Source of the DNA: Sedimentisphaera salicampi
GTDB taxonomy: Bacteria > Planctomycetota > Phycisphaerae > Sedimentisphaerales > Sedimentisphaeraceae
Assembly (NCBI RefSeq): GCF_002117005.1
Contig: NZ_CP021023.1
Coordinates: 1,302,001 to 1,366,000, forward strand
Direction: 5' to 3'
DNA: 64,000 nt
Both the position numbers and the translations under genes were made by a program. Shown piece by piece: positions 1 through 14,400 of this stretch; the stretch's first letter is position 1, and each line of letters begins with the position of its first letter. The notes under the pieces are model-generated. The model saw only the letters and a program-made list of their open reading frames with translations. It did no database searches and was not told the DNA's origin.

Positions 1-84
1 TATAAAAAAACCAAGGATAAGATATGGCGACATTTCACCAAGAATATCCCAGAAATCTTTCAAAAATGTTTTCAAAAAGCCCAT
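1..84 (-). CDS. Putative permease, N-terminus only (SO_0444-like Cu/Zn efflux family)
   Basis: Only the first 28 codons lie in the window; the gene runs off the left edge. The start is the ATG whose complement is at 82-84, preceded by AGAGGTG about five bases upstream. The peptide starts MGFLKTFLKDFWDILGEMSP and goes into a hydrophobic stretch (YLILGFFI). This resembles the amphipathic start and first membrane segment of the predicted permeases (old DUF318 group) that include SO_0444-type metal-efflux proteins. With 28 residues the family call is tentative; that a gene starts here is well supported. Confidence 0.55.
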   Translation of the reverse strand, partial: MGFLKTFLKDFWDILGEMSPYLILGFFI

Positions 85-201
85 AGATGCACCTCTTTCG
101 TTTTTTTGAGATTAAAACTTTAAACTTTTTTCGAGGAGTTAGTACGTAAATGAGTTTTGTTTGTGCATTTTTATCTAAAGGCGGTAAAAATAGGCAGGGA
201 T

Positions 202-882
202 CTATTCATCGAGTTTTTCAGGATTTTCTAAAAATTCAGCAAATTTTGCGAGATATTTTGCCGCATAAAAGGGCGAAACTGTTTTAGCGTTTACAGAAAG
301 GCAAAAATTCATCCTCTTCTGGCTAACCACCCTTCCTCCCTTCATCACCAGCTCCGCTTCAGGCCTGCCCACGGAAATAATAGCGTTGGAGTCTGCCGGA
401 GGGATTGCTACGAAAGAATTTATGCCATACATCCCAAGACTGCTCAGAGCAATAGAAGCATTGTTCATCTCCTCGGGCGAGAGCTTGTCTTCTCGGGCAC
501 GGCGGGTAAGATCTTCGCTCGTCTCGGCAATCTGGGCAAGGGAAAGAAGCTCAACCGCTCGTATTACGGGCACGAATAATATCCCAGACCTGCTTGCAAC
601 AGCAAAGCTTACATCTATCGTATCGGCTATTCTTATTTTTTCAGCCTCTACGCGTGAAAGCATAAACGGGAACTTCTCAGCACCCCGGGCAGCAGCAGCA
701 AAAAAGATGTCATTGGTAGAAACACGCACCCCGGATGCCTTTGCGTAATCACGCCTGAAACGATTCAGGGAATCTGTGCAAACGCTTTTGTTGATATAAT
801 GCGAAGGAATAGTGCGTTTTGAATGCAGCATCCGCTGGCCGATAAGATTCTGTATTCTCGTTAAAGGTGCCCTTTTCTCCAT
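202..882 (-). CDS. E2 acyltransferase catalytic-domain protein lacking the HxxxDG motif
   Basis: A 226-residue stand-alone homologue of the catalytic domain of 2-oxo acid dehydrogenase E2 (dihydrolipoyl acyltransferase). There is no lipoyl domain and no peripheral-subunit-binding domain. Family landmarks are the opening RIQNLIGQRMLHS, the SFAVASRSGILFVPVI region (about 92-108) and ALSSLGMYGINSFVAI (146-160). The active-site segment that normally reads DHRVxDG is NAKTVSP here (198-204), so the catalytic His, Asp and Gly are Ala199, Ser203 and Pro204. The ATG at 882 is chosen because GGAAAG precedes it and family similarity begins there; an upstream in-frame extension to 978 is not E2-like. It is probably not an active acyltransferase; a structural or regulatory role, or decay, are possible. 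Confidence 0.75.
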   Translation of the reverse strand: MEKRAPLTRIQNLIGQRMLHSKRTIPSHYINKSVCTDSLNRFRRDYAKASGVRVSTNDIFFAAAARGAEKFPFMLSRVEAEKIRIADTIDVSFAVASRSGILFVPVIRAVELLSLAQIAETSEDLTRRAREDKLSPEEMNNASIALSSLGMYGINSFVAIPPADSNAIISVGRPEAELVMKGGRVVSQKRMNFCLSVNAKTVSPFYAAKYLAKFAEFLENPEKLDE

Positions 883-1056
883 ATGCTTTCCGTGTAAATA
901 AAAGAGTTGAACAATTAGTAAAGATTGTACATAAAGGCCGATATATTGCAAACTGATTAAACGGTTCGGAATTTGCATTTCTGTAAACGCTCATTTAAAA
1001 AGCGCCAGAAATAAATATAATAATATGCAATTCTTAAGAAATTTATAAGGAGAAAT

Positions 1057-2202
1057 ATGATTTACAAAACATTCGGCAAGACAGGTTACAAGGTTTCTTC
1101 AGTAGGCTTCGGAGGAATGCGATTCGATTTGAACTACAGCAACTCTGATAATTCCTACCTCCTCGACTATGCTTGGGATAAAGGTATTAACTTTTTCGAC
1201 TCAGCTCCGGGTTACTGCGAAGACAAAAGCCTTGATATATTCGGCCACTTCTGCAAGAGGACTAAATCAATACGTGATCAGTATTATGTATCTTCAAAGC
1301 TTATGCCGCAGATGGTGAGCTCTGCAAAGGATACAATCGAGCAGGTTGACAAGGCCCTTAAAAGGCTAAACACAGATTATATCGATTTCTTCTATGTATG
1401 GTGCATAAGGAATCTGAATCAATACGACGAGGCTGCTAAGGCCGACGGGCTGATTGAAGGCCTTGAGAGATGCAGAGAACAGGGCAAAATCAGGCATATA
1501 AATGTCTCCTCACATCTCAGGGGCAAAAGGCTGAATAAAGTGCTTGAGAAGCGTGATTTCGCTGGGATTCTCGTGGGCGTAAACATCCTGAACTTTATGT
1601 TCCGCTGGGATGCAGTGGAAACAGCTTACAACAGCGGAGCAGGGGTAGTTGCGATGAATCCGCTTGCAGGCGGTATGATACCGCAGCACGAAGAGAGATT
1701 CAGCTTCATTTCAAGCGGAAGCGAATCTCCCACAGATGCTGCTCTTAAATTCTGCATAGGAAGCCCTGAAATCACCGTTACGCTAAACGGCTTTACAACG
1801 AAAGAGCATATCGATCAGGCGTGCCGGTGCGCAGATGAAAGCAAACCGCTCAGCAAGGAACAGAAAGAGCAGATAGCTAATATGCTCAGCGACAACTTCA
1901 ACGACCTCTGCACAGCCTGCGGCTACTGCGACAGCGAATGTCCCAAGGGCATACCCGTATCCTCATATATGCAGTTTTACAACAGAAAACTGATTGAAAA
2001 CAAAAGCGACAAAGACCTCAAAGAGGATCTCAAGTTCAGCCGAGAATGGGGCATACTCAACGACAGAGCAGCCGAAGCCGCAGACTGCATTAAATGCAAA
2101 AGGTGCGAAGAGGCCTGCACCCAGCACCTCAATATTACAGAGAGGCTTGAGCATATCGAAACGATCGAAGAAGAGCTCAAGAACGAAAATCAGAAAGCTT
2201 AA
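1057..2202 (+). CDS. Aldo/keto reductase with C-terminal 2x[4Fe-4S] ferredoxin domain
   Basis: A 381-residue oxidoreductase with an aldo/keto reductase barrel (about 1-275, opening TFGKTGYKVSSVGFGGMRF) followed by a ferredoxin-like tail. Two cysteine clusters are visible: C285, C288, C291, C295 and C344, C347, C350, C354. This fits the predicted Fe-S aldo/keto reductases. The barrel segment after DYIDFF reads YVWC where relatives usually have a Leu-Leu-His pattern, so the usual catalytic His looks replaced by Cys; this is my alignment by eye. GGAG lies just upstream of the ATG. The next gene starts directly after the TAA stop, so the two are very likely one transcript. The substrate is unknown. 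Confidence 0.9.
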   Translation: MIYKTFGKTGYKVSSVGFGGMRFDLNYSNSDNSYLLDYAWDKGINFFDSAPGYCEDKSLDIFGHFCKRTKSIRDQYYVSSKLMPQMVSSAKDTIEQVDKALKRLNTDYIDFFYVWCIRNLNQYDEAAKADGLIEGLERCREQGKIRHINVSSHLRGKRLNKVLEKRDFAGILVGVNILNFMFRWDAVETAYNSGAGVVAMNPLAGGMIPQHEERFSFISSGSESPTDAALKFCIGSPEITVTLNGFTTKEHIDQACRCADESKPLSKEQKEQIANMLSDNFNDLCTACGYCDSECPKGIPVSSYMQFYNRKLIENKSDKDLKEDLKFSREWGILNDRAAEAADCIKCKRCEEACTQHLNITERLEHIETIEEELKNENQKA

Positions 2203-3843
2203 ATGGCAAAAAAGACTCAAAGAGAAAAGAGCAGGCAGAGGAAAAAGCTAAAAATTCAGCTTCGCTTGATGCTCAAGAGCATTGACCTTCGCCCGCACAG
2301 CGTTGCGAGCAAGTGCAGGCTTCAGTTTGGGCTTGCGATTATCGTAATCCTTACTCTTGCGCTTCTTTTTCCTTACCTCTGGATGAACAAACTTGCAGAC
2401 AAAGCCGGCTACGATACCGTAGTTACAGTGTCTAAGCTGGTGATAAAAAACGAACTCGAGGGCAATTCAGACTTTTCGGAAAAGTATATTCAGCAGGAGG
2501 GACTGAGAGACACCAAAGAGAGCGAAAGCTTTATAAGATGGGTTGACCTTCGCACTGCTGAAGCGGAAAAGCAGGCCGATTTGAGCGAAAAGCAAAAGCA
2601 GATTATCCAAAAGCTAAGGGAATCCAGCGAAACAAATATGCGTTTCTGGAGGACTGAATCGAAGGACAAAGCGTACAATAATCTCCTCAGGCTCGTTACA
2701 AATGAGGAGGTTTATTCTAATGATGCAATTCAGGAGCTCAATGCTGCAAACCCGAAGCAGGTTGTTGGAGCGGTGATTGTGAAACTGCTGGATGAGAATC
2801 GCGGCAAAACGATGCTTATGAATAAGATCTGCATCATATTTGCCGGCTTCCTCGCAGGCTGCGGAGCGATAATCACGGTTTACGTTATCATTCAGCGAGT
2901 AATTTTAAGCCCCATACGACAACTCAGGGCCCTTGTGAGCAATGTGTCCGAGGGTAATATCAATGCCCGTTCTTCAATCAAAACCAACGACGAATATCAG
3001 CGTTTTGCTGAAGGCTTCAACCAAATGCTCGACGGACTCAGAGACAGCCAGCAAAAGCTGAGAAAAGCAAATAAGCAGCTTGATGAGAAAATCGTAGAGC
3101 TTTCTGAGAGAAACGTGGAGCTGTTTAAGGCCAACAAGCTGAAAAATGAATTCCTCGCCAATATGAGCCACGAATTCAGAACGCCTCTGAATGCAATCAT
3201 AGGCTTCTCAGACCTGCTCAGAGACAATACACCCCGCTCGCCTGAGAAGATATCCAGATACGCGGGGAATATCTCTGAGAGCGGGCGAAATCTTCTGAGC
3301 ATGATAAATGATCTGCTCGATCTCGCCAAGGCTGAGGCCGGCAGGCTTGAGCTCAGGATAGATAAAACAAGCGTCCCCGAGCTCTGCAGAGGGGTTGTAA
3401 GCTTCTTCTACGGTATGGTGCAGAAGAAAAATATCAGCCTTGAGCTGGAGGTGGATGATGAGATTCCAATTATCAAGACCGACGCATCAAAGGTGCAGCA
3501 GATACTCTACAACTTCATCAGCAACGCGATAAAATTCACGCCCGAAGAGGGTGAAATCAAGATGGACGTTATGATGGCCGATGAGAAAACGGTTCGCATC
3601 TCAGTAACTGACACCGGCTGCGGCATACCGAAAGACCAGCAGGAATCGATATTCGGCAAATTCCGCCAGCTCGACGGGTCTATAACGAGGATGGTTCCGG
3701 GAAGCGGGCTTGGACTTGCTATATCTAAAGAACTCGCCAACCTGCTTGCAGCCAATATAGGCGTTGAAAGCGAACCTGAGAGAGGCGCAACCTTCTATCT
3801 GGAAATCCCCGTGATACTGGAAGAGGAAAACAAGGAAGAATAA
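2203..3843 (+). CDS. Membrane sensor histidine kinase (HAMP, HisKA, HATPase)
   Basis: A 546-residue hybrid-free sensor kinase. After a basic N-terminus there is a membrane segment at about 42-62, an extracytoplasmic region of about 140 residues, a second membrane segment at about 208-231, a HAMP linker, a coiled-coil stretch, then the phospho-acceptor box NMSHEFRTPLNAIIGF with His323. The ATPase domain follows, with an N box (QILYNFISNAIKF) and G boxes (DTGCGIP, GSGLGLAIS). No receiver domain or response regulator is adjacent. The ATG directly follows the TAA of the Fe-S aldo/keto reductase gene, which suggests translational coupling. I do not recognise the sensor region. Confidence 0.92.
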   Translation: MAKKTQREKSRQRKKLKIQLRLMLKSIDLRPHSVASKCRLQFGLAIIVILTLALLFPYLWMNKLADKAGYDTVVTVSKLVIKNELEGNSDFSEKYIQQEGLRDTKESESFIRWVDLRTAEAEKQADLSEKQKQIIQKLRESSETNMRFWRTESKDKAYNNLLRLVTNEEVYSNDAIQELNAANPKQVVGAVIVKLLDENRGKTMLMNKICIIFAGFLAGCGAIITVYVIIQRVILSPIRQLRALVSNVSEGNINARSSIKTNDEYQRFAEGFNQMLDGLRDSQQKLRKANKQLDEKIVELSERNVELFKANKLKNEFLANMSHEFRTPLNAIIGFSDLLRDNTPRSPEKISRYAGNISESGRNLLSMINDLLDLAKAEAGRLELRIDKTSVPELCRGVVSFFYGMVQKKNISLELEVDDEIPIIKTDASKVQQILYNFISNAIKFTPEEGEIKMDVMMADEKTVRISVTDTGCGIPKDQQESIFGKFRQLDGSITRMVPGSGLGLAISKELANLLAANIGVESEPERGATFYLEIPVILEEENKEE

Positions 3844-3883
3844 GACCTAAAAAGCATAAATTTGCAAGCCTCAAAAAAAAATC

Positions 3884-3912
3884 TTGACAATACAGGGAGA
3901 TTGTTGTAGAAT
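3884..3912 (+). promoter_or_regulatory. Sigma-70-type promoter
   Basis: TTGACA (3884-3889) and TAGAAT (3907-3912) are separated by exactly 17 bases. The pair lies 48 bases before the ATG at 3960 and in the right orientation for the FGE-like gene. It is the best consensus promoter found in the window. Confidence 0.75.
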
Positions 3913-3959
3913 TATGGGTGTCGTTCGGAAAAAATAATTTGATTTATTCTGGAGAAGAG

Positions 3960-4949
3960 ATGAGATTTTTTTTAGCAATCGGTTTTTGTTTATGCTTCAT
4001 ATCTGGTATTATTTGGGCGGATACTTTTGGGACTGGAAGCGATCAGTTTGATATGGATTTTGTGACGATATCAGGAGAAAGCAACCCAAACAGCGGTTAC
4101 GGCATCGTCGATGGCGATTATCGCATGGGCAAATTCGAGATTACGAACGACCAGTGGAACAAATTCGTCAACATCAACGGAGCTCCTACGGGCGATCCGT
4201 CTGACGCTTACGATCAAAATGGCGGCTGGAGCGGCGCAAATGTTCCGACTAACGAGGTCAGTTGGCACGAGGCAGCTCAGTTCGTTAACTGGCTTAACAC
4301 CTCGAAGGGCTACCAGGCGGCGTACAAATTTACGGGCACTAAGGGCCAGAGCGACTACGCACTGGACACTTGGAGCGCCACCGAAGCCGATAACGGCACG
4401 AACCTCTACCGCCATAAAGATGCGTTTTACTACCTGCCGACACACGATGAGTGGATCAAGGCGGCATATTGGAATGGGACGGAACGTCAGACATACGCGA
4501 CCAAGCCCGGTGAGTCGTTACATCTGGGCAATGGTCAAAGCGGTTCGGGCTGGAATTACACCGTCAATTATCCCCAAGACCCACCACCGCCAGGCCCTTG
4601 GGACGTAGGCAGCGGCAGCGAAGAATTGAACGGCACATTCGACATGATGGGTAATGTAGCAGAGTGGATAGAAACCAGCGAATTTCTGAGTTCCGATTAT
4701 GGAGTTCAGACCAATCGACTACTGCGCGGTGGGTCCCATCTCAGTTTCTATGGCCAAAACTTTGATTACGACGGAGATAACAACATTACCAACACCTACC
4801 CGAGCAATGAACAAGACTATATTGGGTTCCGTGTTGCCTCAGAACCTGAGCCCGCTATTTCGTTAGCAGCAGACCTAAACGAAGACGGCTTGGTAAATGT
4901 TGAAGATTTGGCAATATTCTCAAGCCAATGGCTACTGACAGAAAATTAA
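3960..4949 (+). CDS. Secreted FGE/SUMF1-like domain protein with C-terminal dockerin-like repeat
   Basis: A 329-residue exported protein. The ATG at 3960 follows GGAGAAG and opens a signal peptide (MRFFLAIGFCLCFISGIIWA). The body has formylglycine-generating-enzyme fold motifs in order: YRMGKFEITNDQW, NEVSWHEAAQFVNWLN, YLPTHDEWIKAAYW, GNVAEWIE, LRGGS and the closing GFRVAS. No cysteine occurs in the C-terminal region where true FGE has its catalytic pair, so it should not activate sulfatases; such domains often act as binding modules. The last 27 residues (ADLNEDGLVNVEDLAIF...) are half of a dockerin-type calcium-binding repeat. It has its own promoter and a strong terminator, so it is probably monocistronic. 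Ligand unknown. Confidence 0.85.
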   Translation: MRFFLAIGFCLCFISGIIWADTFGTGSDQFDMDFVTISGESNPNSGYGIVDGDYRMGKFEITNDQWNKFVNINGAPTGDPSDAYDQNGGWSGANVPTNEVSWHEAAQFVNWLNTSKGYQAAYKFTGTKGQSDYALDTWSATEADNGTNLYRHKDAFYYLPTHDEWIKAAYWNGTERQTYATKPGESLHLGNGQSGSGWNYTVNYPQDPPPPGPWDVGSGSEELNGTFDMMGNVAEWIETSEFLSSDYGVQTNRLLRGGSHLSFYGQNFDYDGDNNITNTYPSNEQDYIGFRVASEPEPAISLAADLNEDGLVNVEDLAIFSSQWLLTEN

Positions 4950-4977
4950 ACACCAGTTTTTATAACGTTGCTGATTA

Positions 4978-5025
4978 AGAAAAGACCGGAATGAGAAAGT
5001 AAAATCTCTTATTCTGGTCTTTTTG
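4978..5025 (+). terminator. Rho-independent terminator after the FGE-like gene
   Basis: A long hairpin (AAAGACC-GAATGAGA pairing with TCTC-TATTC-GGTCTTT, small imperfections) followed by TTTTTG, starting about 30 bases after the stop codon. Confidence 0.8.
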
Positions 5026-5044
5026 TTTATTAGGAAGCTATTTG

Positions 5045-5088
5045 TAAGTCGGAGTGGCGAGATTCGAACTCACGACCCCTTGCTCCCA
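5045..5088 (-). repeat. tRNA-Pro 3' fragment, candidate attachment site (left)
   Basis: Identical over 44 bases to 5920-5963. Read on the minus strand it runs from the anticodon TGG through the T arm and acceptor 3' strand to the discriminator base, plus four bases beyond. It has no 5' half, so it cannot make a tRNA. Confidence 0.85.
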
Positions 5089-5156
5089 GATGAAAGAATG
5101 GCTTGGGAATTGATTTTTAAATAAAATAACATCTTGTAAAGAAGTAATACGTTAAT

Positions 5157-5184
5157 TTGACAAACAAATTTAGTTTGATATAGT
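5157..5184 (+). promoter_or_regulatory. Promoter of the element genes, likely giving a leaderless transcript
   Basis: TTGACA (5157-5162), a 16-base spacer and TATAGT (5179-5184). The ATG of the first gene is at 5195, only ten bases after the -10 box, so transcription should begin within a few bases of the start codon. No Shine-Dalgarno sequence precedes it. Confidence 0.6.
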
Positions 5185-5194
5185 ACTTATCATT

Positions 5195-5449
5195 ATGAAA
5201 AATAAGAATAATAAAAAATCATTTATACGACTTATAAGCTGCAGTTTTTCAATGTTTGGTGCTTTTATTTACCCAAACGTTATTGCTGACAAAATCCCTG
5301 AGCGTCCTCGCAAAATTCCGGCTCACAGCAAAAGCGTATGGGAGGCTATAGGCGGAGACTTTCAAAAAGTAGGCGACACACTCTGCAATGCTGCTGAGAA
5401 AAGGAATTCAAGCCATGACCCGAAGAAAGAAAAAACAAAAACCGGCTAG
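5195..5449 (+). CDS. Small protein of unknown function in the tRNA-Pro element
   Basis: An 84-residue protein I do not recognise. A basic N-terminus (MKNKNNKKSFIRL) leads into a hydrophobic stretch (about 12-30, ending before ADKIPERP) that could be a signal peptide or anchor. Then follow a proline-rich segment (KIPERPRKIPAH) and KSVWEAIGGDFQKVGDTL, which looks like an amphipathic helix, and a lysine-rich tail. The gene has its own promoter and overlaps the next gene by 35 bases in another frame. The tight two-gene arrangement suggests that the products work together. Confidence 0.6.
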   Translation: MKNKNNKKSFIRLISCSFSMFGAFIYPNVIADKIPERPRKIPAHSKSVWEAIGGDFQKVGDTLCNAAEKRNSSHDPKKEKTKTG

Positions 5450-5888
5450 TCGCAGAAATACCAACCCCTCCAGTAATCAACCAAGAAATAAAGAACAATC
5501 AACCCGTGGAATTGCTCAATTACATCACAAGCATTTCGAAGGCCCTATTCCTCCCCCTGAAGTTCTTGGAGCATATGAGCCTGAAATAGCTAAAACTATA
5601 GTACAGATGGCTCAGAATGAAAGCAAACATAGACATCAGATTGAAACTAATGAGCAGAAAAACAGAGCAGAATACATCCGGACGAAACAAAATCTTATTT
5701 ATCAAACAACCCGCAACAGTCAGGTGTTCGCCTTTATAATTCTATTTATAACAATAACAGGCAGCATATTCCTGTTGTATAAAGGGAGAAATCTCAGCGG
5801 AGCAGGCACTTTCATTGCCGGAATCGCCCCTGCTCTAAAAGTCCTATTTTCCAATCCCAACAAGAAACAGACAGACAAAAAGCCCTGA
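5415..5888 (+). CDS. DUF2335-like predicted membrane protein
   Basis: A 157-residue protein. The ATG at 5415 is chosen over 5388 because AAGGA lies upstream at good spacing. After a lysine/arginine- and asparagine-rich N-terminus comes the family signature FEGPIPPPEVLGAYE followed by IVQMAQNESKHRHQIE, matching DUF2335 proteins as I know them (a GP-PPPE-YE block, then MAE/Q...HR). A hydrophobic C-terminal region (VFAFIILFITITGSIFLLY, then a glycine-rich second hydrophobic stretch) suggests two membrane segments. Function unknown. The stop codon lies inside the terminator stem. Confidence 0.75.
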   Translation: MTRRKKKQKPASRRNTNPSSNQPRNKEQSTRGIAQLHHKHFEGPIPPPEVLGAYEPEIAKTIVQMAQNESKHRHQIETNEQKNRAEYIRTKQNLIYQTTRNSQVFAFIILFITITGSIFLLYKGRNLSGAGTFIAGIAPALKVLFSNPNKKQTDKKP

Positions 5889-5918
5889 AAACCATTTGAC
5901 GATTTCAGGGCTTTGTTT
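5879..5918 (+). terminator. Terminator of the element genes
   Basis: AAAGCCCTGAAA (5879-5890) pairs perfectly with TTTCAGGGCTTT (5903-5914) around a 12-base loop, followed by GTTT. It overlaps the stop codon of the DUF2335-like gene and lies just inside the right repeat. Confidence 0.8.
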
Positions 5919-5919
5919 A

Positions 5920-5963
5920 TAAGTCGGAGTGGCGAGATTCGAACTCACGACCCCTTGCTCCCA
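5920..5963 (-). repeat. tRNA-Pro 3' end, candidate attachment site (right)
   Basis: The second copy of the 44-bp direct repeat, identical to 5045-5088. It is part of the intact tRNA-Pro gene. Identity stops exactly in the anticodon loop. Confidence 0.85.
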
Positions 5964-5998
5964 AAGCAAGTGCTCTAGCCAAGCTGAGCTACACTCCG
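5924..5998 (-). tRNA. tRNA-Pro (anticodon TGG)
   Basis: On the minus strand the acceptor stem CGGAGTG pairs with CACTCCG. The D arm is GCTC/GAGC, the anticodon stem CTTGC/GCAAG holds the loop TTTGGGA (anticodon TGG), and the T arm GTGAG/CTCGC holds TTCGAAT. Discriminator A; CCA is not encoded. Its 3' part is duplicated at 5045-5088. Confidence 0.97.
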
Positions 5999-6118
5999 AT
6001 TTTGAATAGACGGGGTATTTTACACAGACCCTTTTTCAATTCAAGATTATAATTGAGAATTTCGATGTTTTTTCAACTCGCAGGATTAAAGTATCTTTCT
6101 GCAAGATGAAACGGGAGG

Positions 6119-6156
6119 AAGAAAAAGCCCCGCCGGCGTGAATGCAGACGGGGCTT
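6119..6156 (-). terminator. Terminator after rpsG
   Basis: On the minus strand AAGCCCCG and CGGGGCTT form a stem followed by TTTT. It marks the end of the long tuf-to-rpsG cluster; fusA does not follow. Confidence 0.8.
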
Positions 6157-6174
6157 GAATATTCATATTCAGTT

Positions 6175-6648
6175 CTACCAAGCGAAATGAGCAAATGCTT
6201 TATTCGCTTCAGCCATCCTGTGCACATTTGTGCGCATTGTCATAGCTGAGCCTTCGCCCTTGTATGCATCGCATAGCTCTGCGGCGAGTCTTTCGGCCAA
6301 AGGCCTGCCCTTCTTGCCCCTAATGCCGTCGAGAATCCAGCGGAAGGCAAGAGCCCTCTGCCTGTTTGGCTTAACCTGCATAGGCACCTGATAGCTCGCA
6401 CCGCCCACACGTTTACTGCGAACTTCAAGGGCAGGCTTTACATTTTCAATAGCCTTCTCGAAGACCTCATTAGGAGGACAATCCTTAATCCGTTTTTCAA
6501 CAATACCCATCGCATCATAGAAAACTTTGCGTGCTACGCTCTTTTTCCCATCAAGCATAAGGCAATTGATAAATTTGGCAATCAGCTTACTTCCATAGAC
6601 CGGATCAGCCTGAAGCTGAGTTGCAGATGCTGTAAATTTCTTTGCCAT
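6175..6648 (-). CDS. rpsG: 30S ribosomal protein S7
   Basis: A 157-residue S7, the primary 16S rRNA-binding protein that nucleates assembly of the 30S head. Family landmarks are [21 protein letters not shown] near the N-terminus, [15 protein letters not shown] in the middle and [14 protein letters not shown] at the end; the length is usual. It follows rpsL by a short gap. The common order rpsL-rpsG-fusA is broken after this gene by a terminator and the tRNA-Pro region. Confidence 0.98.
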
Positions 6649-6680
6649 ACTGTGCTTTATCCCTTATTCTAAAACAAAAA

Positions 6681-7046
6681 TTACTTATTCTTAGCGCCGT
6701 ACTTACTTCTTCCCTGCTTACGTCCGTCAACGCCCGCAGTATCGAGGGCGCCTCTGACAACGTGGTAACGCACACCCGGAAGGTCTCGTACACGACCGCC
6801 TCTGACAAGAACAGTACTGTGTTCCTGAAGGTTATGGTCTATGCCGGGAATATACGCTGTTACCTCTTTGCCGTTTGTAAGACGAACCCTTGTGATCTTA
6901 CGAAGGGCAGAGTTCGGCTTCTTAGGTGTCTGCGTTCTAACTATAAGGCACACACCTCTTTTCTGCGGACATCCTCGGATATCCGAAATTCTTTTGCGGG
7001 AGGGCTTTTTCCTTCCCTTCCTAATCAGCTGGTTGATTGTGGGCAT
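6681..7046 (-). CDS. rpsL: 30S ribosomal protein S12
   Basis: A 121-residue S12 of the decoding centre. It opens [15 protein letters not shown] and contains [15 protein letters not shown], the loop where streptomycin-resistance changes occur in other bacteria, and a C-terminal [17 protein letters not shown]. It lies 67 bases after rpoC with no clear terminator between, so it is probably transcribed with rpoBC. Confidence 0.98.
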
Positions 7047-7113
7047 TATTAAAAACCTTTAATAAACTGTTAATATTTCATTCTTATCAGACCGCAGTTA
7101 AGGGGCTAGAGGC

Positions 7114-11373
<4,260 letters not shown>

Positions 11374-11416
11374 TTCCCAGTAGCTCCTTTACTAAGAGGG
11401 CTCAAAGATTTCACAC

Positions 11417-14400
11417 CTAAAACGGCGAATTGTCTTTTTTGGTTCTTTCAAGTCTCATATTCAGGCCAAGACCCTTAATCTCATTACAGAGAACTTCAAA
11501 CGAAACAGGCGTACCGGCCTGAAGAGAATTATTGCCCTTCACCATAGATTCGTATATCTTGCTGCGGCCTTCAATATCATCGCTCTTAACAGTAAGAATT
11601 TCCTGCAGAAGGTATGCAGCTCCATAGCCTTCAAGCGCCCATACTTCCATCTCACCGAAACGCTGACCGCCTGCCCTGGCTTTACCGCCGAGAGGCTGCT
11701 GAGTGATGAGGCTGTATGGTCCGGTGCTCCTTGCGTGCAGCTTATCATCAACAAGGTGGTGCAGTTTGAGCATATACATATACCCAACCGTGCCTCTCTG
11801 CTCAAACGGCTCACCAGTACGGCCGTCGTAAAGCTGATTCTTTAGGGTATCAGGCACAACCGAGAGAAGCTGGTCTTTCGGAGGCGGTGTTTTTGTTTTC
11901 TCGCATTCGTCTCGAACATTTTTCACGTGCTCGTTTGCCTGCATTGTAAGCTCGAATATTTCCTCTTCGGTTGCCCCGTCAAACACAGGGGTTATGCCGT
12001 CGAATCCGAGAACTTTAGCCGCCCAGCCCAGATGCGTTTCGAGAATTTGGCCAACATTCATACGTGAAGGCACGCCGAGAGGGTTGAGCAGGATGTCAAC
12101 CGGAGTTCCGTCATCAAGGAACGGCATATCTTCTTCCGGCATAATCCTTGCGATAATCCCCTTATTACCATGGCGGCCTGCCATCTTATCACCCACAGAG
12201 AGCGGACGTTTCATAGCTACGTAGATCTTCACCTTCTCGAGCACACCGTTGGGCAACTCATCGCCCCGCTTCATATGCTCGGTAACTCTCTCGAGCTCCT
12301 GACCGATCTCAACAATCTGCGGCCAGTACATATCTACGATTTCCTGGAATTTCTTCTTTTTATTGCTCTGCTTGAGCCAGCTTGGAGAGAAACTCTCAAT
12401 CTGCTCAGCGATCACATCATCATCCTTGCTCACCCCTGCCTTCTGAAGGGTGTCCGGATCGATAACATCAACCTCGCCCAGCTCGCTGTAAACAGTTTCC
12501 ATCATATTTCTGAAAAGACGAATCTGCTTTCCGAGAGATTCTTTTCTGAGCTTTTCGATTTTTTCGTTAAGCTCTTTCTTTTCCGCTTCGTTGGTTGCTG
12601 TGTATCTGCGGAAATGCTTTGTGCCTATTATTACCCCTTCGTGGCCGCTGGGCATAACAAGCGAATCATTTTTCACATCTTCGCCAGCCCTGCCGAAAAT
12701 GGCATGCAGGAGCTTCTCTTCAGGCGTAAGCTCAGTTTTGCTCTTCGGAGACACCTTGCCCACGAGTATATCGCCCGGGCCAACCCGAGTTCCCTCGCAG
12801 ATCACGCCGCGGGCATCAAGATTCCGGAGCATCTTCTCGCCCACATTCGGGATATCTCTTGTAAACTCTTCTCGTCCAAGCTTGGTTTCGCGAACCTCTA
12901 CCTCGAACTCATCTATATGAACACTTGTGAAAGTGTCTTCCTTAACCACCTTCTGGCTTATAAGAATAGCGTCCTCGAAGTTGTATCCGTCGAAAGGCAT
13001 AAATGCAACGAGAAGGTTCTTTCCAATAGAAAGCGTACCGTTGCATGTTCCTCCGCCGTCTGCAATAATCTGCCCTTGTTCAACCTTATCGCCAAGGATT
13101 ACAGTAGGCTTCTGGTTAAGGCAGGTTCTTTCATTGAGGCCGCGGTATTTGCGAAGGTGATATTCGTCCCTGTCGTCAACTACAATCTTCGTAGCATCAA
13201 CTGCGGTAACCGTGCCGCTGCGGCGGGCTTTAACAACCATTGGGGTGTTCTTGGGAACTTCATATTCCATGCCCGTTCCCACAAATGGCGCTTCTGTTTT
13301 GAGCAGCGGAACCGCCTGCCTCATCATATTCGAGCCCATAAGAGCCCTGTTGGCATCGTCGTGATCGAGGAATGGGATAAGCGAAGCTGAAATACCCACA
13401 GTTTGCTGTGAAGAAACATCAAGATACTCAACTTCTTTGCTGTCTATCTGAGTGAGTTCGCCCTTCTCACGTGCGAGCACCGGGCCTGACCTGAGCTTCT
13501 TCTGGTCTTTCAAATCTAAAGCTGCCGGCGGCGCACATACCACATCATCTTCATTATCCGCACGCATTGTAGCAACCTCGCCGGTGAGCTTGCGGTTCTT
13601 AACCTTCATATAAGGCGTCATCAGGAAGCCGTATTCATCAAGGCTCGAGTAAACACCGAGTGAGGAAATCAGCCCGATATTGGCACCTTCAGGTGTTTCA
13701 ATAGGACAAATCCTCCCGTAGTGCGAAATGTGAACGTCTCTAACTTCAAAGCCTGCGCGTTTTCTGTTGAGCCCGCCCGGGCCGAGAGCTGAGAGCCTTC
13801 TTTCGTGCGTGAGCTGACTGAGGCAGTTTGTCTGGTCAACCACCTGACTCAGCTCGCCTCTGCCGAAGAAGGCGTCGATATGATTCGAAACGCTCTTGCT
13901 GTTTACAATATCCGAAATTTTCTTGATATCTTCGGCCTGCTTGCTGCTCATCCTGTCTGTAACAGTTCTGCGGAGCTTTAAGAGCCCCTTTCTGATCTCA
14001 TCTGAGCCCAGCTCGCCCACAGTTCTAACGCGGCGATTACCGAGATGGTCGATATCATCAATCTCACCCTGATTTGCCCTGAGCCTGAGGATGTAGCTGA
14101 CAACGTTAATATAGTCCTGCGGTCTGATGGTCTGATGTTCTTCAGAAACATCTGTCCCGAATTTCCTGTTCAGGCGGAAACGGCCAACCTTCCCGAGACG
14201 ATACCTGCTCTTGTCGTAAAAACGTTCGTTGAACAGCTGCTCAGCCTTTTCAACGTTTGCAGGGTTCCCCGGACGCAGCTTTGAATATATCTTTATAAGG
14301 GCGTGTTCGTAGGTTTCGCAGTCATCCTCAGCGAGGGTGTTGAGGATAAGCATATCGTTGAGATTTTTCACAACCTCAATTTTGTCAATGCCGCTGCCCT

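Follow-up and report, generated by a model that had tools for sequence, protein, structure and literature searches.

The window analysed here, a stretch of 64,000 nucleotides from Sedimentisphaera salicampi (positions 1302001-1366000 of the complete 3.19-Mb genome), contains an 875-bp unit that lies at a tRNA-Pro gene, is bounded by two copies of the 3' half of that gene and holds a single operon of two small genes. On balance, we consider this unit to be a minimal, att-bounded, CIME-like element that was put in place by a tyrosine recombinase acting in trans. Its content would be that of a self-contained expression cassette, made up of a promoter, a small partner gene, a gene for a DUF2335 membrane protein and a bidirectional terminator. 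In the mechanism that we propose, a circular form carrying a tRNA-Pro 3' half would recombine with the chromosomal tRNA gene at the anticodon region by means of a tyrosine recombinase encoded outside the element; the element's own 3' half and terminator would rebuild a working tRNA-Pro gene, and the original 3' half would end up displaced 875 bp away. Mobilisation in trans had been offered as one reading in the earlier note on this stretch; for this unit we infer it, together with the class of the recombinase and the present-day mobility of the unit. The features of the locus, in window coordinates, are as follows.

3918-4949, plus strand: outside neighbour, an FGE-sulfatase-domain (sulfatase-modifying-factor-like) protein with a weak C-terminal dockerin match (Pfam)
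4982-5028: hairpin terminator beyond the distal copy (fold z -5.6, sequence)
5041-5088 (44 bp perfect at 5045-5088), minus strand: displaced tRNA-Pro 3' half, the distal att copy (repeat search; same-strand fragment, tRNA positions 36-79)
5157-5184, plus strand: sigma-70-like promoter, TTGACA-16-TATAGT with an extended -10 (consensus scan, 11/12 matches)
5195-5449, plus strand: 84-aa small partner ORF (weak partner-profile match; position and overlap as in other partners)
5388-5888, probable conserved start at 5415, plus strand: 166-aa DUF2335 membrane-protein ORF (PF10097, phrog_3996)
about 5879-5915, both strands: bidirectional terminator hairpin common to the operon and the tRNA (RNA fold z -6.1 on the plus strand, -5.6 on the minus strand)
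5916-5963 (44 perfect at 5920-5963), minus strand: proximal att copy, within the intact tRNA gene and its 3' flank (repeat search)
5923-5998, minus strand: intact tRNA-Pro(UGG), the target gene (ARAGORN, anticodon TGG)

The two att copies form a direct repeat of 48 nt with one mismatch and a spacing of 875, which is perfect over 44 nt; it starts at tRNA position 36, in the anticodon, and reaches 3 nt beyond the end of the tRNA, with a few further matching bases after that. No other direct repeat of 18 bp or more occurs in positions 1-12000 of the window, and chance cannot account for this one. The earlier note had described a perfect 44-bp repeat linking tRNA-Pro to a 3' fragment broken at the anticodon, and both ARAGORN and the repeat search confirmed it; the coordinates, ORFs, promoter and terminator given there also proved correct by scan and folds. 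When 5089-5963 (875 bp) is removed and the outer flanks are joined, one intact tRNA-Pro gene followed by a terminator is restored. The hairpin at 4982-5028 is presumably this pre-insertion terminator, situated between the convergent sulfatase-modifying-factor-like gene and tRNA-Pro, while the hairpin inside the unit overlaps the stop codon of the DUF2335 gene. The GC content inside the unit is 38.2%, compared with 46.4% in sampled stretches of the same genome, which places it in the lowest 3.6% of same-size windows. The 875 bp encode two small ORFs only, with no integration or transfer genes, and the boundaries show no inverted repeats of at least 18 nt of the kind that mark an insertion sequence or MITE, nor attC sites of the kind that mark an integron cassette, the ends being tRNA sequence. 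A third copy of the tRNA-Pro fragment or att core is absent from this genome, and the core had no match in the viral and genome collections searched, from which records close to this genome may be missing.

In a search for tyrosine recombinases, neither the 875-bp unit nor the window was found to encode a recombinase such as an IME, prophage or tycheposon would bring with it. The genome has six matches to PF00589, of which the nearest is ~100 kb from the unit, and the description of the unit as an att-bounded, integrase-less tRNA-Pro element in the earlier note is supported. Four of the six lie beside other tRNA genes, namely tRNA-Gly(ccc), tRNA-Met, tRNA-Leu(gag) and tRNA-Lys(ttt), none lies at tRNA-Pro, and two of the six look like Xer-type recombinases. 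The element at tRNA-Met (G000 943225-949172, L039) is 5.8 kb long and carries its own tyrosine recombinase and a Rep-like ORF; it is bounded by a perfect 63-bp repeat that starts at the anticodon, like the tRNA-Pro repeat. The tRNA-Leu element has a 25-bp repeat with a spacing of 5.5 kb. The unit has no sequence in common with the resident tRNA elements that were sampled, their ends included. A tyrosine recombinase with the same attachment core, for which the earlier note had proposed to search this genome, was not found there; the core occurs at a single locus, and a helper integrase using the tRNA-Pro core was rejected on the grounds that there is no second core copy and that no ends are common with the other tRNA elements.

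We compared the locus with that of a same-genus genome (G001), whose identity to the window by blastn is 90.6% for the ribosomal/rpoC side and 87.5% for the histidine kinase gene. G001 differs at one base within the tRNA-Pro half, and the two copies in the window agree at 44/44 positions. The displaced half, which has no known function, would be expected to have accumulated changes had it predated the split from G001, so that the insertion is, as judged from these alignments, recent. In G001, tRNA-Pro is followed by a terminator and, ~80 bp on, by the histidine kinase gene; the region corresponding to 3844-5915 (2.07 kb), which includes both the 875-bp unit and the sulfatase-modifying-factor-like gene, is missing. 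We therefore rejected G001 as a clean empty site, because the neighbouring gene is gone too, and the terminators are ambiguous. The terminator of tRNA-Pro in G001 aligned with the terminator beside the intact tRNA of the window at a score of 33, on a scale where the 99th percentile for unrelated tRNA flanks is 31 and orthologous flanks of the species pair mostly lie far higher, with a median of ~67. The likeness could reflect convergence or att mimicry, or else some of what we count as the element side could be ancestral, and it is this ambiguity that most weakens the case for insertion at the tRNA-Pro locus. The empty site in relatives that the earlier note had hoped for was accordingly not obtained from the sister, in which the neighbour gene is lacking and a weakly similar tRNA terminator is shared. 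The same note had named divergence between the repeats and a larger tandem duplication as arguments against insertion; the repeats are identical over 44/44 positions, and a larger tandem duplication is excluded, since the adjoining 875-bp stretches have nothing in common except the 48-bp repeat.

The 166-aa protein is a member of PF10097 (DUF2335; 28 bits, gathering cut-off 25) and of phrog_3996, annotated as a "moron" membrane protein (E 9e-23). Its AF2 model (pLDDT 80, pTM 0.51) predicts a disordered N-terminus, one long helix and a two-helix transmembrane hairpin, with no significant resemblance to PDB folds; the structure model of the partner is of low confidence. No PADLOC anti-phage defence model matched either protein, NCBIfam gave no useful match, and among the papers searched two mention DUF2335, each once and in passing. 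A DUF2335 homologue was found in 26 of the 397 genomes of the class. We read the gene order at the loci of this 26-genome set, at 18 viral loci and at 80 loci from the species-genome collection, and a short ORF overlapped or directly preceded DUF2335 at 100/106 cellular loci (duplicate fetches included) and at 17/18 viral loci. The partner is thus present at ~95% of ~100 DUF2335 loci from many phyla, with the motif A(I/L)..DW..VG.DI..A or, allowing for more variation, A(I/L)..D(W/F)..VG.(D)(I/L)..A, and DUF2335 and its partner form a conserved operon. The partner family has no Pfam model; PHROGs 26284 and 27385 match some partners weakly, and neither PF10097 nor PHROG 3996, to which the 166-aa protein belongs, mentions a conserved small partner. 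The 84-aa protein of the window scored 16.9 bits (single-sequence E 1.9e-7) against an HMM of 18 other partners from which it had been left out, and 14.4 bits against a 59-sequence partner profile omitting it. These scores are weak on their own, and together with the gene order and the overlap they support its assignment as a divergent member of the partner family. As to function, the cargo probably acts as an accessory module associated with the membrane, in the manner of phage morons; from its distribution and topology only, one might guess at a role in superinfection exclusion, in defence or as a toxin-antitoxin-like pair.

The earlier note had called this pair worth following as sole cargo, which proved right: it recurs alone in small repeat-bounded units without a recombinase elsewhere, and at other tRNA genes as well. 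In an acidobacterial locus (L260) the pair lies between tRNA-Ala and a perfect 29-bp fragment of the tRNA-Ala 3' end, at a spacing of 744 bp, and in a Bacteroidetes locus (L235) it lies between tRNA-His and a decayed fragment with 19 exact bp, at a spacing of 1371 bp. In Chloroflexi (L240, L246) the pair lies between two copies, spaced 1039 bp, of the 3' end of a 90-aa gene; judged by eye, this target gene looks ThiS/MoaD-like, coding for a small ubiquitin-like protein. Among 19 genomes of the family, two are filled at this site and nine close relatives are precisely empty: in these nine the gene runs straight into the flank found past the second copy where the site is filled, and one of the nine matches L240 at all but one of the 60 bases that follow the gene. 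This filled/empty comparison shows precise insertion of a unit that contains the pair only. In a Nitrosomonadales MAG (L244, 772-6410), six near-identical attC sites (ends GCCCAAC...GTTGGGC, fold z -3.6) occur in 12 kb, and one of the cassettes, 786 bp long, is the DUF2335 pair. The pair is also bounded by repeats of 16-39 exact bp in Bacteroidaceae (L264), Streptococcus (L242), Acidobacteria (L217) and Bacteroidales (L193); most of these repeats sit inside longer imperfect ones, as does the 27-bp exact core in L264.

Most DUF2335 pairs are found outside repeat-bounded units, and several candidates were set aside. The repeat in L242, ~90 bp at 93% and present in just two copies in that genome, was considered as a prophage att site, which was not established. 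The Ignavibacteria locus L237, with a tRNA-Lys/tRNA-Met cluster and a tRNA-Met fragment, was rejected as a second tRNA case, the pair there not being placed between a tRNA 3' end and the fragment of that same tRNA. The 77-bp repeat flanking the pair in L175 (956, 2185) codes for the REP-associated-transposase-like motif FMPNHAHLIL and was dropped. We found no tRNA 3' fragment at the tRNA-adjacent pairs of L162, L186, L223, L234, L248 and L255, and neither a tRNA nor a repeat at six extra planctomycete loci from the search of the phylum.

We applied identical rules to other positions of the same loci as a control (3258 matched positions). Flanking repeats of at least 22 bp were found at 9 of 85 pairs versus 40/3258 control positions, and a tRNA within 350 bp at 9 of 85 pairs versus 39/3258, an enrichment of about 7- to 9-fold in both cases. 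With the window left out, repeats of at least 19 bp remained at 9/84 (p ~4e-6) and a nearby tRNA at 8/84 (p ~8e-6), and strict filtering to six independent repeat-bounded loci gave p 0.001, all of these p-values being optimistic because the pattern was found and tested on one set. It is conceivable, if somewhat short of probable, that the pair is a dedicated minimal passenger, a recombinase-free cassette of 0.7-1.7 kb from promoter to terminator that would repeatedly gain the att sites of whichever recombinase is at hand (tRNA- or gene-end-targeting tyrosine integrases, integron integrases) and would spread across phyla both as such and as a phage moron.

The main rival of the trans-moved unit is decay: an integrase-bearing prophage or integrative element at tRNA-Pro would have been deleted down to a terminal moron pair and both att sites. 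The two explanations draw on one att chemistry; they part on the question whether it was the minimal unit that moved. In favour of decay, DUF2335 is a family of phage morons, and CIMEs are classically held to arise as elements decay until their att-bounded remains are left (PMC5704250). An integrase adjoins the pair in a prophage (L168), a small tRNA-Asn element (L177) and two viral contigs (L120, L123), and in two further viral contigs (L126, L128) the pair stands at the very end; L177 (3824-6727, ~3 kb), which consists of tRNA-Asn, integrase, a small ORF and the DUF2335 pair, is possibly a small autonomous relative of the unit in the window. However, the first ORF begins only ~106 bp of non-coding sequence after the distal repeat copy, remains of other genes are not seen, and operon, promoter and terminator are all intact. 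Units with the same two genes that are just as minimal are present at unrelated sites, and for one of them relatives have clean empty sites. A larger ancestor element at the tRNA-Pro site was seen in none of the 59 genomes searched, the sister site being uninformative. We regard decay as the less likely course.

That the block 3844-5915, including the sulfatase-modifying-factor-like gene, arrived as one composite or tandem insertion would agree with the sister, which is without the entire 2.07 kb and has its histidine kinase gene close behind tRNA-Pro. Yet there is no att-like copy at the far end near 3844, the GC content of the extra part (46.6%) is genome-like, and the reconstructed tRNA with the terminator at 4982-5028 makes an ordinary convergent gene end, so that this explanation seems improbable. 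We give still less credit to a local rearrangement, in which duplication, gene conversion or illegitimate recombination would have copied the tRNA 3' half beside unrelated native genes, the unit never having been mobile. The terminator score of 33 slightly exceeds the 99th percentile of unrelated flanks, as such a history would lead one to expect, but it falls far below most true orthologous flanks of the species pair. The neighbouring 875-bp stretches, alike in the repeat alone, likewise speak against tandem duplication; moreover, the break is at the anticodon, the same as in the integrase-bearing resident tRNA-Met element, and the cargo is repeat-bounded again and again elsewhere.

The preferred reading, a minimal unit moved in trans, has likenesses to several known systems. 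CIMEs are att-bounded and without integration or transfer genes, and have been described as decayed ICEs or IMEs beside a helper (PMC5704250). The unit in the window resembles them in its attL/attR-like repeats at a tRNA gene and in lacking a tyrosine integrase and transfer genes, but it consists of one intact operon of two genes, and no helper turned up nearby. Among the ssrA islands of Dehalococcoides, 15 are without integration modules (PMC3146451), and here too a short duplication of an RNA-gene 3' end bounds recombinase-less units; they differ in forming tandem arrays with recombinase-bearing islands of a single family, and are confined to one site and one genus. Integron cassettes are likewise minimal recombinase-free units moved in trans, and the same pair is a cassette in L244, but cassettes have attC sites and the boundaries in the window are tRNA 3' halves. 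The dif (pdif) modules of Acinetobacter plasmids are likewise small, with recombination sites at their ends, and their movement is ascribed to the host XerCD acting in trans (PMC13141974, PMC7399989); they differ in their dif-like sites and their location on plasmids. Tycheposons, for which a size of 4-200 kb is stated, encode a tyrosine recombinase, and additive tRNA-targeted genomic islands are known too (PMC4119200, PMC10872708); like the dif modules, the additive islands count as functional analogues of the unit. Tycheposons and additive islands both use tRNA genes as targets for gene cassettes and have tRNA-end copies that mark the units, but they are much larger than the unit in the window. 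The statement of the earlier note that the unit is far smaller than known elements is consequently valid for integrated islands and does not extend to integron cassettes or dif modules. New features are that the unit is so extremely small, that its partner gene had not been described, and that one and the same two-gene cargo recurs in units free of a recombinase, with several kinds of att site and in several phyla.

The locus is an actual example of an att-bounded insertion as small as can be expected, holding one two-gene operon, and the operon, with its undescribed partner gene, is repeatedly packaged as a small bounded unit across phyla. Since a related unit has both filled and empty sites in close relatives, two questions can now be put to a direct test: whether, outside integrons, units without a recombinase are moved in trans at tRNA genes and gene ends, and what a widespread phage-moron pair does for its carrier.

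Other arrangements at tRNA genes were noted in the course of this survey. The sister genome has a ~2.1-kb islet at tRNA-Leu(caa) (G001 2940294-2942465, L103), with a 27-bp repeat and a Fic-like protein and without an integrase. At G000 2637607-2638353 (L050), a tRNA-Asn gene is preceded by a broken copy and followed by a split 3' half, and the region holds the palindrome AGTCCGCCGCAGGCGGA and a GIY-YIG-like ORF, which suggests a separate, endonuclease-linked duplication of a tRNA gene. Two genomes of the same family (L023, L024, at ~1600-1770) have scrambled and inverted tRNA-Pro-like pieces downstream of tRNA-Pro.
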